A stretch of 38,802 bases of DNA, from the NCBI GenBank assembly GCA_027451885.1, contig DAIDHX010000161.1, positions 1 to 38,802 of the forward strand, written 5' to 3'. Each line of letters begins with the position of its first letter. Within the stretch, counting starts at the first letter, position 1. The translations under genes were made by a program, and so were the position numbers. Of the stretch, positions 24,105 through 37,636 are shown piece after piece. The DNA is from Planctomycetales bacterium (GTDB taxonomy: Bacteria > Planctomycetota > Planctomycetia > Isosphaerales > Isosphaeraceae). The notes below the pieces were generated by a model that worked only from the letters and a program-made list of their open reading frames with translations, had not been told where the DNA came from and did no database searches.

Positions 24105-24881
24105 TCATGGCCGGGGCGCGGATTTCGCCGCGGCGGGGGTGTTTGCCACGGGTTTGGGGAGCGGAACTGGTGCCGCGGCGGGGGTGTTTGCCACGGGTTT
24201 GGGGAGCGGAGCCGGCCCCGCGGCCGGCGTGGGGGGCGCGACCTTGCTCGTAGCAGCGCTGTTCGCAACCGGCGGAGGCGGAGGCGCAATGGTGAAACGG
24301 CAGGGCGGGCCGATCAGCCGGGACCACACGGCACGCTGTTTGTCGTTCAGCACGCCATGTGCCTTTTTCAGCAACGCCGTTTGATCCGCGATGCTCCAGA
24401 ATTGATTCTGCTGAAGTGCGTGCCTGCGCGTTTCCGCGAGCCGAATGAGCGCGGTTTTCTGGGCTGGTTCAAGCCTCAGCGATTCCTGGATCATCGGGCG
24501 GGAGAGCATCGCCGTCACACCTTCCCATTGCAGATCAACCTGCGTGAGCCGGTCGAGCTGGCTCGACGAAAGGTGCGTGGTGAGCCATTGCGTTTGCTCC
24601 TCGTCGATCGCCCGCCGCGCGGCCACAATCGCCGGACCAGCCTTCCCCTTGAGTCCAAGCGCCTGGCGATAAAGTGCTTCACCGGCGTGGAGCGCCTCCG
24701 ACTTCTGGTCAGAGTCGAAGCCCAGCTCATTTTGAACGTCAAGCCGCATCAACAGCAGGATGGGCGCAGCACGGATACCGAAGCGGTCGTCGAGGAAATC
24801 CTCTGCACGAGCCGCATGAGACAGGAGAACGCTGGCCAGGGCCAGCAACGCGATTCCGCGAAGGGTCAATCCGTGACGCAC
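24105..24881 (-). CDS. secreted protein with repeated Pro/Ala C-terminal tail, unknown function
   Basis: The 258-residue protein starts at a GTG (24879-24881) with AGGAG and seven bases of spacing. Residues 1-26 are a signal peptide (LLALASVLLSHAARA). The mature half is helical and charged with DFLDDRFGIRAAPILLLMRL, DSDQKSEALHAGEALYRQAL, SSSQLDRLTQVDLQWEG, LEPAQKTALIRLAETRR and LNDKQRAVWSRL, a series of xxxQ helices. It resembles the planctomycete proteins at 495-3637 in style (xQ helices after a signal peptide), but no clear common motif is visible. The last 60 residues are Pro/Ala-rich, with two tandem copies of a 15-residue unit PLPKPVANTPAAAPV. Function is unknown; an extracytoplasmic location is inferred. 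It is followed by nothing on its strand until the divergent ATC-hydrolase gene. Confidence 0.75.
   Translation of the reverse strand: MRHGLTLRGIALLALASVLLSHAARAEDFLDDRFGIRAAPILLLMRLDVQNELGFDSDQKSEALHAGEALYRQALGLKGKAGPAIVAARRAIDEEQTQWLTTHLSSSQLDRLTQVDLQWEGVTAMLSRPMIQESLRLEPAQKTALIRLAETRRHALQQNQFWSIADQTALLKKAHGVLNDKQRAVWSRLIGPPCRFTIAPPPPPVANSAATSKVAPPTPAAGPAPLPKPVANTPAAAPVPLPKPVANTPAAAKSAPRP
24127..24210. repeat. 45-base tandem repeat inside the secreted-protein gene
   Basis: A 39-base identical block recurs with a 45-base period (24127-24165 and 24172-24210), which gives two in-frame copies of a 15-residue Pro/Ala unit. The variable six bases encode the only residue changes. Confidence 0.85.
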
Positions 24882-25081: not shown

Positions 25082-26467
25082 TCAGGAGTTCGAGCCCGAG
25101 CTGCTCCCCCGAATCTCACGGAGGCTCTTGCGTTTGGGCTTGGCGGCGGCAGGCTTCTGGCTAGTCGGCGTCGATCCGGCGGAACTCGTGTTCGCGGTTG
25201 AGCTGCTCGAGCCCGTCGAGGTCCTGGCGGTTGCGTTCGCGGCTGGACCGCCAAACGGCCCACCAGGCCCGCCCCACGGCCCGCGCCCGCCCATCTTCGT
25301 GCGATCGAAGGGCGCCCCCAGCATCTTGGCGTAAATCCCCCGCTGCCGCTTCGAAAGCCGGCCCAGAATCGCGCGGGAGGCAAGCTCCCGGATCTCGTCT
25401 TGCTTGCCCTGGAGGGACTTCATCCGCTCCTGAACCTCGGGCGCTGCCATCGCCTTCTTCATGAGCTCCGGATTGAAGCGGCGATTCCCCCGGTTCCCAT
25501 TCGCGTTATTCGCGTTGTTGCCCGCGGCACCAGCCTGACCCTGGTTTCCCGTCGAATTGCCCGAAGCCTGGTCCTCCGCCTGGACCTTCTTCATGACGTC
25601 GCGGAAGAAGTTGCGCTGGGCGTTGCCGACTTCACGCTGTGCGGCCCGTTCTTCCGTCAGCGCCTGCTGGATGTCGGCCACCGTGAATTCATCCATATTG
25701 AGCTTCTCGATCATGTCCGGGCGAATCAGGGCGCGAGGACCCTCGAGCTGGAGCTGGATCTGGCGGAGGCGGGCGATCTGGCCCTTGTTCAGAATGTCGG
25801 AGAGCGAGGCATCGCTTTCCTGGCGGAGCTGGTCCATGGCTTGCCTCATCTGAGCAAAACGCTGGAGCTGGGCAGGATCCAGCATCGGTTGCTGACCCCG
25901 ATTGCCCCGCCCGCCGCCGGGCGCAGCACCGCCGGGGCCAAACCCACCGGGACCGAATCCGCCGCCCGCCGCGCCTCCACCGCCAGGACCAAAGCCACCC
26001 CCAGCGCCGCCTGCTCCGCCAGGGCCGAAACCACCGGGAGCAAATCCGCCCCCAGGCGCTCCCCCGACAACTCCATTCGCACCGCCGCCGCCCTGGTTTG
26101 CACCACCCGCACCACCCGGGCCAGCGGCTCCCCGATTCGCACCGCCAGGTCCGCCCCCTGGTCGACCGAACCCAAGATCATTGAACATTTGACGCCGCCG
26201 GGTGTTCAACTTCTCGTTCAGGGCGGTTAGCTCTTTTTTCTGAGCATCCGACGGCTTGTAATCTTCCTGGACGCCGGCATTCATCGCCAGGCCGAGCAGG
26301 CCGCCGCCAAAACCACCAAAACCCCCTCGGCCCCCGCGACCACCGCCGCCAGGGCCGCCAGGGCCGCCCCCGGGTGCTTGCGCCTGCTGTGCCTGGGCCG
26401 TTACGGCGGATAGCGACAGGAGCGCAAGAAGCCCCGTCGCGTAAAAGGTGCGAAGAGCTCGATTCAT
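25082..26467 (-). CDS. secreted glycine-rich protein, unknown function
   Basis: The start is the ATG at 26465-26467 (MNRALRTFYATG, 461 residues); the frame is open 25 codons further without support. A signal peptide ends near LSAVTAQA-QQ. Three parts follow: a Gly-rich stretch (residues about 30-60), a helical region EDYKPSDAQKKELTALNEK, a second very Gly/Pro/Ala-rich segment (about 100-200), then a long charged helical region (QRFAQMRQAMDQLRQESDAS, MIEKLNMDEFTVADIQQALT, RNFFRDVMKKVQAEDQ) and a Ser/Thr/Lys-rich tail. I do not recognise a family; secreted helical proteins with xxQ-rich helices are common in planctomycetes. The Gly-rich parts could be surface-exposed or flexible linkers. About 200 bases separate it from the following gene and from the Ig-domain gene upstream; neither gap shows a gene. 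Confidence 0.75.
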   Translation of the reverse strand: MNRALRTFYATGLLALLSLSAVTAQAQQAQAPGGGPGGPGGGGRGGRGGFGGFGGGLLGLAMNAGVQEDYKPSDAQKKELTALNEKLNTRRRQMFNDLGFGRPGGGPGGANRGAAGPGGAGGANQGGGGANGVVGGAPGGGFAPGGFGPGGAGGAGGGFGPGGGGAAGGGFGPGGFGPGGAAPGGGRGNRGQQPMLDPAQLQRFAQMRQAMDQLRQESDASLSDILNKGQIARLRQIQLQLEGPRALIRPDMIEKLNMDEFTVADIQQALTEERAAQREVGNAQRNFFRDVMKKVQAEDQASGNSTGNQGQAGAAGNNANNANGNRGNRRFNPELMKKAMAAPEVQERMKSLQGKQDEIRELASRAILGRLSKRQRGIYAKMLGAPFDRTKMGGRGPWGGPGGPFGGPAANATARTSTGSSSSTANTSSAGSTPTSQKPAAAKPKRKSLREIRGSSSGSNS

Positions 26468-26668
26468 GGTGGGAACCTCGAAACGGTTGGCTGGCGGGTC
26501 CTTGCGGCGGTCAACCGATGGACGGCGAACGCATGGCAACACCTTATCTTAGCGACGTACCCACCCTCCCTGGCCGTCCCGGATTGATGAAAAAAACTTC
26601 ATCGGCAGGAGTGGACGCCAGATCACAAGATTCGTCGCAAGCCCCAGCAAATCCTGGCCTTGCCGGAG

Positions 26669-27433
26669 CTAGTGGACCAGCCCAGGCGGCCACACCAGCC
26701 AGATCCCCAGACCACAGGCCACGCCGAGAGTGCCAAGGCGGACCAGCCAGCGATAATGGCTGAACCTACGGCCAAGCACAACCTCTTCCGCCGTATTGAG
26801 ATCTGCGCGAGCTGCCTGGTGTGAGGAACGCTCCAGAGCGGCGATGGCGTTCATCCCCACGAGATGAACGAGCCAGAGAATCAGGAACCCCACCCCTTGC
26901 TCGGCCCAGGCTTGCCAGGGTACCGCACGCGAGGAAGCAGCCCACGAAAGGAGCGTCGGTTCGGGCTCGGCCACGAGCACGCTAATTCGGGCCGTCGAGC
27001 TCGCACTGCCGGTTCGATCGGTCACCCTGACAACGAAGGGCTCAGCGGAAGAGTCTGCCTTGTCTGGGGTTCCGTGAAGCTGCCCGGTCTCCTCATCGAG
27101 CTCGAGCCAGGCGGGATGGTCACCCAGGAGCGACCACCTCGGCTTGCCTGTTGTCCCCACGGCTGCGAGTGCAAGTGTGTATGGACGCCCGGCAACAGCA
27201 TCTGGGAGTTGCCCGGGTGTCGTGATGGCCAGTTGGGGCTTTTCCTGGTCACGTGCGCCCGAGGTCGCCTGGCCGACTTCGACCGCCTTGGGAATGAGCG
27301 CCATGATCACCATGGTCAGCAGCAATATGAACAGAAGTGCACCGGTGAGCTTGGTCACCACGACGGCGACGAAGGAGTCTTCACCCGAGCTACCGAATTC
27401 CGGGCTGCTCCCGGCGCGACGTGAACGACGCAT
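26669..27433 (-). CDS. membrane protein with an Ig-like (He_PIG-type) domain, partner of a MotA/TolQ-like protein
   Basis: The protein has 254 residues. One hydrophobic helix lies near residues 21-47 (FVAVVVTKLTGALLFILLLT and MVIMALIP), preceded by a charged segment with E18 and D19. Residues about 67-155 form a putative Ig-like domain of the He_PIG class (PGQLPDAVAGRPYTLALAAV, LELDEETGQLHGTP, FVVRVTDRTGSASSTARISV). Two more hydrophobic segments follow (181-200 and 229-249). It lies 33 bases after the MotA/TolQ-like gene, as expected for an ExbD/MotB/ZorB-type partner. Unlike those partners, the first helix has no acidic residue. Ion coupling is therefore uncertain. Function is unknown; a force-transmission or anchoring role is inference. 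Confidence 0.75.
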   Translation of the reverse strand: MRRSRRAGSSPEFGSSGEDSFVAVVVTKLTGALLFILLLTMVIMALIPKAVEVGQATSGARDQEKPQLAITTPGQLPDAVAGRPYTLALAAVGTTGKPRWSLLGDHPAWLELDEETGQLHGTPDKADSSAEPFVVRVTDRTGSASSTARISVLVAEPEPTLLSWAASSRAVPWQAWAEQGVGFLILWLVHLVGMNAIAALERSSHQAARADLNTAEEVVLGRRFSHYRWLVRLGTLGVACGLGIWLVWPPGLVH

Positions 27434-27466
27434 TGGCTGGTCCCATCCCTGGACTGCGGGCGCGGA

Positions 27467-28810
27467 TCACGCCACACGGATCGAATCGCCGCGACTCGAT
27501 CCTTGATCGGGTCGCTCGTCGAACAGCTTTTTGACAATGCTGCGGTAGAGGGCGTTGCTTTGCTCCATGGAGACATTGAGCAGGTCGAGCGCATCCCTCA
27601 GGCTGGTGAGGCTTCTCGCGAGCTGTTCCTGGGTGGCGCGGCTGGATTTCTCGTACGCGCTCGACCAGGATCCGGCGAGCGAGTCGATCGAATTCCCTGC
27701 GCGGTCGACTCCGCGTTTGAGTTCTTCCCAGTGATTGGTGTTTGCCTGGGATTCGACCAGGAATGTTTCGATTCGTGCAAGGCTGCCCGTCCCGCGTTTC
27801 ACGGCCTCGCCGGCCGCGGCGAGCGACTCGAGCTCGTTGCCCAGCCGGCCGATTTCGATCGCCCCTTTTTCGAAGGAGCCGAGCGACCTGGGCAAGCGCT
27901 CAACGGCCTCTGCAAACCGGGCGACCGGCTCGGCCAGCCGGCCGGCGAGCGCCTCGGCCTGGGCCTCGAGCGCCTCTGTGGCGGGTGCGATCGCACGCTC
28001 CAGGGTCGCGCCCAGCGCATCGAGCCTGGGCCCAAGCACGGCCGCGAGTTGCTCCGCCTGCGAATCCACGGCCGACACGCTGGGTAAAACGTGTTCCACA
28101 ACCCAGCGATCCACTCGAGCCAGAAGATCCTCCGAAAGTCGCTGCAGCACCGTCTGCACAAGCATGAGCGCTGCACTCAGGAAGAGCGCAAGCAACGTGC
28201 TGTCAAATGCGATCTGAAGGGCGGCGGTAACCGAGGTCAAATTGCCCAGAAACGCGTCCAGGTCACGCACCAGCGGTAACACCTTGCTGATGTTCATGAG
28301 GGCCTTCGAGATGCCCTCGACCGTTCCGATAAAGCCAATCACGGGCAAAAGATAGAGAATGTACCGGGTGAGCGTGAAGCGGCCGGCCATCTGCTCCTGG
28401 TCGAGGCCCGAGCTCTCCCGGTTGACCTCCATGACCTGGCTAACGGTGGGTGTGCGGCTTTCCTTCAAAAAGCCCGCAAGTTGACGCACCCGCCGGCCCA
28501 GAATCAGCCGGGTCTCTGGCTCCTGGGCTGGGATTTCGTCTCCCGCCGTCGTCGCCCGCTGGAGCAGCTTGAGCAATCGCCCCGAGCTCGCGAAGCCAGT
28601 CTCGTCCCGCCAGAGTCGAAAGAGCTCTCGGGCCAGCGTCAGCACCGCCCAGAAATAGATCGCCGTGCCAACGTATTGTTCCCAGCCGCGCTCGAACATG
28701 AGCGTGGGATTCGTCACCATGAGCCCGATGGGAAAGAGCGCGGCGAGTGCGAGCATGGCCGCTGCTCCGACGTAACTCATTGTCTGGCGAGATTCTCGGT
28801 CTTGAGCCAC
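27467..28810 (-). CDS. MotA/TolQ/ExbB-like membrane channel subunit with long coiled-coil tail
   Basis: I start at a GTG (28808-28810) after AAAGGA with eight bases of spacing (447 residues); an ATG 10 codons later lacks a ribosome site. Four hydrophobic helices lie near residues 13-33, 46-62, 150-168 and 193-221. The third and fourth carry the family blocks LYLLPVIGFIGTVEGISKAL and TAALQIAFDSTLLALFLS, as in MotA/TolQ/ExbB ion-channel subunits. From residue 245 to the end is a long Ala/Leu/Glu-rich coiled coil (RLDALGATLERAIAPATEAL, EALEAQAEALAGRLAEPVAR), much longer than in TolQ. That tail is reminiscent of ZorA and of planctomycete/cyanobacterial TolQ-like proteins. It is followed by the Ig-domain membrane protein. 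No other Tol or Zorya genes are in the window. Confidence 0.85.
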   Translation of the reverse strand: MAQDRESRQTMSYVGAAAMLALAALFPIGLMVTNPTLMFERGWEQYVGTAIYFWAVLTLARELFRLWRDETGFASSGRLLKLLQRATTAGDEIPAQEPETRLILGRRVRQLAGFLKESRTPTVSQVMEVNRESSGLDQEQMAGRFTLTRYILYLLPVIGFIGTVEGISKALMNISKVLPLVRDLDAFLGNLTSVTAALQIAFDSTLLALFLSAALMLVQTVLQRLSEDLLARVDRWVVEHVLPSVSAVDSQAEQLAAVLGPRLDALGATLERAIAPATEALEAQAEALAGRLAEPVARFAEAVERLPRSLGSFEKGAIEIGRLGNELESLAAAGEAVKRGTGSLARIETFLVESQANTNHWEELKRGVDRAGNSIDSLAGSWSSAYEKSSRATQEQLARSLTSLRDALDLLNVSMEQSNALYRSIVKKLFDERPDQGSSRGDSIRVA

Positions 28811-28943
28811 CGGCCGAATCCTTTCTGGCCTGGGGAAGCGTTGCCGCGCGCGGGAGCAATCCTGCGCGGGGCGGATCGTTGATATCGCCGGGTTTGCCCG
28901 CTTCGTCAAGATCAGCGCGGGGGCGGACCTGACAAATCCCCTC

Positions 28944-36451: not shown

Positions 36452-37636
36452 ATGCTGGATCTGATTCGAGTCGTCCTGATCGATCCCAGCGAGCCCACAC
36501 GCGAGCCGCTCAAGCGTCTCCTGGGCGGCATGAGCCGGGTCTGGCTCGCCGAGTCGCTGACCGACTACCAGGACGCCGCGCGCCAGATGAAGGATCTGGC
36601 GGTCCAGGCCGCTCTCGTTGTGCTCGACCACGATCCCGGCCGGGCGATCGAGCTGATCGCCACGCTCACTCAGGCCGATCCAGAGCTCGTCGTCGTCCCG
36701 GCCAGCAGCAAGAGCGACGGTTCGCTGATCATCAAATCGGTCCGGGCGGGAGCGCGCGAATTCGTCACCCTCCCCGCGGAACCGGCCGAGCTGCTCGAAA
36801 CCTTCTCCCGCCTGGTCAAACCGCGGGGAAACCTCACCTCCGGTGGGAACTCCGGCCCGCGCGTGATCACGGTGACAGGCGCATCGGGGGGGATTGGCTG
36901 CACCTCGGTGGCCGTCAACCTCGCCGCCACGATCGCCAGCCTGAAACAACACGAGAGTCTACTCCTCGATCTCGATCTGGCCTTCGGCTCGGTCGACGCC
37001 GGGCTCGATGTCGCCGGCGACTACACCCTCACCCAGGTGCTCCAGTGCTTCGATCGCCTCGACCTCACCTTGTTGAAACGGTCAATGACGCGGCACCAGT
37101 CGGGGCTTTACGTCCTCCCCAGGCCGGTCGATATCCACGAGGCAGCAACCGTTGATCCCGAGGTGTTCCGCCGCCTGCTCGGCCTGCTCCGCGCCGCTTA
37201 CGGCACCGTGATCATCGACGCCAGCAAGGGCTTGCAGGCCACGGACTTCGTCGCCTACGAGATGTCGGACGTCATCCTCGTGGTTACCCAGCTCGATCTG
37301 ATCTGCCTGCGCAACACCACCAGGCTGGTTCAGCTCCTCAGGCAGTTCGATGGTCTCGGCGATCGGATCAAGATCATCGAGAACCGCGCGGGCCTGTTCG
37401 ATGGGGAGATTTCCCGGGCCAGGGCCGAGGAGACCCTCAAACTGCCGATCTCCTGGCAAATACCCGACGCGGTGAAGCCATTCCAGGCCGCGAGGACCCA
37501 GGGCTCTCCCATCGCCGATGTCGCCAAGGGAAGCCGCGCACACCAGGTGTTTCTCGAGGCGGCAAGGGCGCTTTGGCCCCAGCTCGAGGAGGATTCCAAC
37601 AAGCCGCGCAGAGGGCTTTTCGCGGCCTTCTTCTAG
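36452..37636 (+). CDS. cpaE: CpaE/TadZ-like pilus localisation ATPase, degenerate Walker A
   Basis: A 394-residue protein with an N-terminal receiver-like domain (LIRVVLIDPSEPTREPLKRL, ALVVLDHDPGRAIELIATL, VRAGAREFVTLPAEPAELLE) and a C-terminal MinD/ParA-like domain, as in CpaE and TadZ. The nucleotide loop reads GASGGIGCTSVAVNLA: the signature Lys and the second Lys/Thr pair of the deviant Walker A (KGGxGK(T/S)T) are replaced by Ser and Cys. The switch I region LLLDLDLAFGSVDAGLDV is intact. The N-terminal phosphoacceptor position is not clear, so it is probably a pseudo-receiver. It acts in placing the pilus machine at the cell pole in known systems. It lies 108 bases after cpaB and 99 before cpaF. 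Confidence 0.92.
   Translation: MLDLIRVVLIDPSEPTREPLKRLLGGMSRVWLAESLTDYQDAARQMKDLAVQAALVVLDHDPGRAIELIATLTQADPELVVVPASSKSDGSLIIKSVRAGAREFVTLPAEPAELLETFSRLVKPRGNLTSGGNSGPRVITVTGASGGIGCTSVAVNLAATIASLKQHESLLLDLDLAFGSVDAGLDVAGDYTLTQVLQCFDRLDLTLLKRSMTRHQSGLYVLPRPVDIHEAATVDPEVFRRLLGLLRAAYGTVIIDASKGLQATDFVAYEMSDVILVVTQLDLICLRNTTRLVQLLRQFDGLGDRIKIIENRAGLFDGEISRARAEETLKLPISWQIPDAVKPFQAARTQGSPIADVAKGSRAHQVFLEAARALWPQLEEDSNKPRRGLFAAFF

Follow-up and report, generated by a model that had tools for sequence, protein, structure and literature searches.

We analysed a stretch of 38,802 nucleotides from a Planctomycetales bacterium of the family Isosphaeraceae (GenBank assembly GCA_027451885.1, contig DAIDHX010000161.1), hereafter the window, in which the gene for a MotA/TolQ-like membrane protein (the ring protein) is followed on the same strand, after 33 nt, by the gene for an Ig-domain membrane protein (the partner). 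The initial annotation had described a four-helix MotA/TolQ-like protein with a tail, a 33-base gap and a partner with one helix, a He_PIG domain and two further helices, and this proved correct in coordinates, order and strand, with domains and helices borne out by Pfam and AlphaFold2 (Table 1). The ring protein was taken to start at a GTG, with a further TTG upstream in the open frame at 28909.

Table 1. Features of the gene pair and of the adjoining genes, in window coordinates.
Feature	Position	Strand	Evidence or remarks
Ring protein gene (GTG start at 28810)	27467..28810	-	MotA/TolQ/ExbB fold, 447 aa; Pfam, AlphaFold2, PDB matches, 28-sequence alignment
Ring protein TM3-TM4 core, residues about 153-205 (E165 and D203 beside T163 and T205)	28196..28354	-	Alignments
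Partner gene	26669..27433	-	254 aa; Pfam He_PIG, AlphaFold2, 24-sequence alignment
Near-invariant helix of the partner, SGEDSFVAVVVTKLTGALLFILLLTMVIMALIPK, codons 16-49	27287..27388	-	pN/pS
Gly-rich exported protein	25082..26542	-	Homologue adjacent to the two genes at 7 of 27 loci, of which several have short flanks
Small exported helical protein, Spy/CpxP-like by eye	24105..24881	-	Homologue in 15 of 27 loci

We found that the ring protein matches the Pfam family MotA_ExbB (PF01618) at 2.9e-7 with 30.7 bits against a cut-off of 22.9, and that it scores 33.8 bits, again over the cut-off, in the genome-wide search. Its best matches among solved structures are TolQ, ExbB, MotA and ZorA, with TolQ reaching a Z of 13.7 and 3.7 Å over 202 residues (VIA-align); a query restricted to the core was needed, as the whole protein retrieved coiled coils. 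The layout comprises TM1-2, a cytoplasmic region, TM3 with the motif GTVEG (T163, E165) and TM4 with AFDST (D203, T205). AlphaFold2 predicts the TM helices, the helical cytoplasmic region and a long helical tail, which in the 28-sequence alignment ends in a conserved C-terminal tip, SLRDALDLLNVSMEQSNALYRSIVKKLF. For the partner, AlphaFold2 predicts a helix at 17-54, an Ig domain at about 66-155 (pLDDT mostly >90) and C-terminal helices at 173-208 and 214-247. He_PIG (1.4e-7) is the sole Pfam domain of the partner over the cut-off, with no ExbD, OmpA-like periplasmic or peptidoglycan-binding domain among the matches. An ordinary ExbD/OmpA partner overlooked by annotation is ruled out by the lack of a Pfam match and by a first helix without Asp.

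Across the 45 genomes of the window's order, the partner is found in 43 and the ring protein in the same 43, with both genes absent from the other two (G302 and G309). The genes are in tandem on one strand in 34 of the 43, linked within about 16 kb in 7, and on separate contigs of fragmented assemblies in 2, indicating that the pairing is conserved and outlasts rearrangement; a lack of conserved adjacency, which would have spoken against the reading of the initial annotation, was not observed. A single scan of 84,980 species genomes returned 28 relatives of the ring protein, and the partner was also present at 23 of these loci. Since the same pair occurs in 43 genomes, a sequencing or assembly oddity is ruled out. 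Upon searching the phylum with the whole partner, mainly Ig-domain matches of unrelated proteins were obtained, and a query with the helix only was needed. Besides the ring protein gene, the window's genome carries five MotA_ExbB and seven ExbD genes, all on other contigs, and the pair is therefore extra to the ordinary Tol/Ton-type motors. That nearly all genomes of the order have the pair points to a housekeeping function in the envelope. The pair is also carried by three records titled 'Candidatus Kuenenia stuttgartiensis' (L024, L025 and L026); these titles are apparently wrong, because the genomes with identical contig coordinates (G326, G328 and G329) are assigned to the same family as the window.

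Next, we investigated the first helix of the partner. Wherever the structure of a MotA/TolQ-family motor has been solved, the axle bears the Asp that binds the ion, and the critical conservation of this residue is a central premise of how such motors are understood to function. Residues 16-49 of the partner are near-identical across all 24 aligned sequences, with a pN of 0.034 as against 0.34-0.36 in the Ig domain and the C-terminal helices, while pS is about 0.5-0.65 along the whole partner, helix included. Because synonymous sites vary here about as elsewhere, overlapping DNA or RNA signals are ruled out as the cause of the invariance. The helix contains K28 and has neither Asp nor Glu after D19, and, among the invariant TM-core residues, K28 is the only ionisable one that lies well within this helix. 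Both K28 and D19 are invariant in all copies examined, namely the 24 aligned partners and 34 + 11 further loci, partly from the same species, the most divergent of which (G305) likewise keeps both. The initial annotation had pointed to the Lys and the missing acid, an observation that lies far beyond chance given near-invariance alongside freely varying synonymous sites, and none of the partner's homologues examined has an acid in the same helix.

A phylum-wide search revealed more distant relatives of the ring protein. Downstream of their genes, one or two proteins are encoded that begin with an N-terminal helix, initially spotted by hydropathy alone. Two axle types occur among them, an acid-less type with the pattern LFPFL..L.C..G and an Asp-bearing type with FLDxxxNxxG; they are often in tandem and, by profile comparison, clearly related to each other. 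The Asp-bearing set (alignment A7) was chosen by a pattern requiring Asp and Gly, and the invariance of these two residues in A7 is thus by construction. The profile of the partner's near-invariant helix matches the relatives' Asp-bearing type of axle helix with a probability of 80% (E 1.3e-5) and, more weakly, the acid-less type (probability 12%). In the profile alignment, which is short and includes a one-residue gap, Asp stands opposite A23/V24, Asn opposite K28, and the first acid of 'DSFLD' opposite D19. The Asp position is A23/V24 in every homologue examined, and K28 lies one turn periplasmic of it. As relatives also possess acid-less axle helices of the LFPFL type, an axle without Asp does not by itself imply that the mechanism is inverted.

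At several loci of relatives (L142, L144, L145, L137, L141, L146 and L147) a MotA-like gene precedes two axle-type genes, of which often just one encodes the Asp, and the two-axle operons of other planctomycete families are candidates for mixed-dimer axles. The partner could likewise be one of two axle proteins, with an Asp-bearing axle encoded elsewhere completing a mixed dimer, as might be expected from relatives that often have two axle-type genes, one of them lacking the Asp, and from the seven ExbD genes in the window's genome. We regard this as decidedly unlikely: each of the seven ExbD genes lies on a contig that also holds another MotA_ExbB gene, and the profile of the Asp-bearing second axle has convincing matches in only 2 of the 45 genomes of the order and none in the window's genome, which speaks against a hidden second axle of this type there.

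Turning to the ring protein, we observed that E165 in TM3 and D203 in TM4 are invariant in the 28 aligned members of the clade, with Glu at position 165 also in the further clade loci examined, and that they are the only ionisable residues in the ring among the invariant TM-core residues. In a set of 28 relatives the position of E165 is occupied by L, I, V, M, Q, W or R and never by an acid, and that of D203 is usually Asp, sometimes Glu and once His. T163 and T205 are invariant and align with T145 and T178 of Escherichia coli TolQ, which are the polar residues encountered by TolR D23 in the proton channel of TolQR (PMC12583513). E165 lies two residues past T163 and D203 two residues ahead of T205; because TM3 and TM4 are antiparallel, the two acids are at the same depth, just periplasmic of the threonines. 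E165 and D203 may touch K28, but the angle between each acid and the lumen threonine of its helix, about 200 degrees, counts against such a contact. Among relatives, one locus (L064, G266) has an Arg at the corresponding position (GTVRG), and its second axle keeps the Asp.

In the tree of ring proteins the window's clade forms one branch (100/100). The neighbouring group, which includes G057, G037, G018 and G131, has moderate support (86/82), and its visible axles carry the Asp; the branch of G057 is long and its exact position unsure. Since the gains of K28 and E165 both sit on one branch, their covariation counts as a single event, with support coming from the strong conservation that followed. 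In the nearest relatives in the phylum, one or more of the axle helices bear the ion-binding Asp. Operons of other planctomycete families with a MotA-like gene and axles (such as those of G057, G048, G167 and G205) share the ring subfamily (AFDTT) and have homologous axle helices; they differ from the window's pair in that one or more axle helices retain the Asp and that GTVxG lacks the Glu. In two loci of the neighbouring group (L063 and L065, from G037 and G018), roughly 400-500 uncharacterised residues precede the MotA-like domain in the same open frame.

The initial annotation had also stated that the Ig domain and the extra helices match no known motor partner; the layout is not unique, however. 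In G057, a member of another planctomycete class, a gene adjoining a MotA-like gene (L135:2853-3998, reverse strand) encodes a protein that combines three He_PIG domains and a C-terminal helix with an axle helix bearing the Asp. As this similar layout is found with the Asp retained, the Ig layout and the change of charge are separable. Upon searching the class of G057 for more Ig-type partners, the one full match was G057's own gene.

When comparing the pair with characterised systems, we find that it resembles TolQ-TolR and ExbB-ExbD in the ring fold, the polar-ring threonines and the N-terminal axle helix. In contrast to these, the ring protein is built from four TM helices with a long tail, the axle Asp (D23 of TolR) is absent and K28 present, and the Ig domain with two C-terminal helices replaces the periplasmic domain of TolR/ExbD. 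A ring acid combined with a basic axle is known from GldL-GldM, in which the strictly conserved E49 of GldL is both required and titratable (PMC8986121) and an ion pair between Arg9 of GldM and Glu49 of GldL has been proposed as proton carrier (PMC12239597). In the window's pair the equivalent contact would be that of K28 with E165 and D203, as judged from sequence. The two systems differ in the ring, with four TM helices here and two in GldL, and in the periplasm, with one Ig domain here and four domains in GldM, and neither a GldL nor a GldM profile (NCBIfam, E 1) matches. Because its sequences set the pair apart from GldLM and place it in the MotA/TolQ family, the chemistry of ring acid and basic axle is probably convergent. 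Our literature search for the pair, or for a Lys-bearing axle in the MotA/TolQ family, returned neither.

The ZorA profile matches the ring protein weakly (8.7e-6), the partner has no match to ZorB, and the ten neighbours checked have no PADLOC match, which rules out a Zorya defence system, in agreement with the initial annotation, which had seen no ZorC/D genes nearby. The pair is like ZorA-ZorB in having a MotA-like ring with a long tail, and differs from it in lacking the axle Asp (D24/D21 of ZorB; PMC11890865), a peptidoglycan-binding domain and defence neighbours. In place of a rotary motor, one might still envisage a gated ion channel, in which a pull on the Ig domain would shift the K28 helix and open the ring, as has been suggested for ZorB upon binding to peptidoglycan. 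ZorAB has been proposed to open upon periplasmic engagement (PMC11890865), and the weak ZorA-like match and the tail would fit. Such a channel is nevertheless unlikely, given the missing ZorB and PADLOC matches and a near-universal presence in the order that is unlike the patchy one of a defence system.

Overall, the pair is real and strongly conserved, and we infer from its sequences a known kind of machine whose new element would be inverted charges, with ion binding suggested to have shifted from the axle to the ring. The initial annotation had proposed a motor- or channel-like pair with altered ion coupling; at the sequence level, the loss of the axle Asp, the invariant Lys and the Glu gained in the ring support this well, although the ring side, with E165 as candidate compensating acid and the older D203, had been missed. 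The reading that we favour, and whose chances we consider evenly balanced, is a 5:2-type motor or gate with ion-binding acids on the ring and a basic axle. Five copies of the MotA/TolQ fold would form a ring in the inner membrane, with TM3 and TM4 lining its centre and the tails forming a bundle on the cytoplasmic side. The axle threading this ring would be made of two copies of the partner's first helix. The role of the axle Asp in binding protons or another cation would fall to E165 and/or D203, which lie level with the T163/T205 polar ring, and K28 would form a changing ion pair with the ring acids while ring and axle slide past each other. The Ig domain, kept near the membrane by the two C-terminal helices, might bind a periplasmic target or immobilise the axle, and output would pass through the ring tail and/or the Ig domain. 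The partner lacks a peptidoglycan-binding domain and its Ig domain, placed between helices, should have limited reach, so that output may go through the tail or an Ig-bound target. A more specific version is a tentative possibility, namely a rotary motor of the MotA/TolQ family in which the ion-binding acid would have moved from axle to ring and the axle become basic independently of GldLM, with the axle membrane-fixed at both ends and output through the cytoplasmic tail.

The main rival to a ring-acid motor or gate, which we hold to be somewhat doubtful, is a non-conducting scaffold or sensor, in which ion flow would have been abandoned, a fixed salt bridge from K28 to E165/D203 would lock the axle, the Ig domain would sense or bind an envelope target and the tail would signal or anchor in the cytoplasm; a structural or sensory complex had also been considered in the initial annotation. 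A buried Lys-Glu pair may be purely structural, and a partner fixed in the membrane at both ends, devoid of the axle Asp and of a peptidoglycan-binding domain, suits a static complex. A relaxed ion path would be expected of such a complex, whereas the whole TM3/TM4 core, both polar-ring threonines and the second acid, D203, are invariant.

As a near-universal and constrained pair without the axle Asp, whose close relatives have it, the system amounts to an experiment done by nature. With it one can address whether the task of binding the ion is exchangeable between axle and ring, whether chemistry of the GldLM type has had more than one origin and which step is essential for torque. The Isosphaeraceae are a group with unusual cell biology, for which the pair provides a tractable uncharacterised system.

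Finally, we examined the neighbouring genes. Both exported proteins of Table 1 are candidates for the same pathway as the pair. The homologue of the smaller protein, for which Pfam gave no match over the cut-off, is also present at loci from which the partner has moved off. The phage-protein collection PHROGs gave no match, ruling out a phage origin. Elsewhere in the window, a forward-strand gene (36452-37636) has an AAA_31 match and weak response-regulator and TadZ_N matches, and possibly encodes a localisation protein of the Tad-pilus type.
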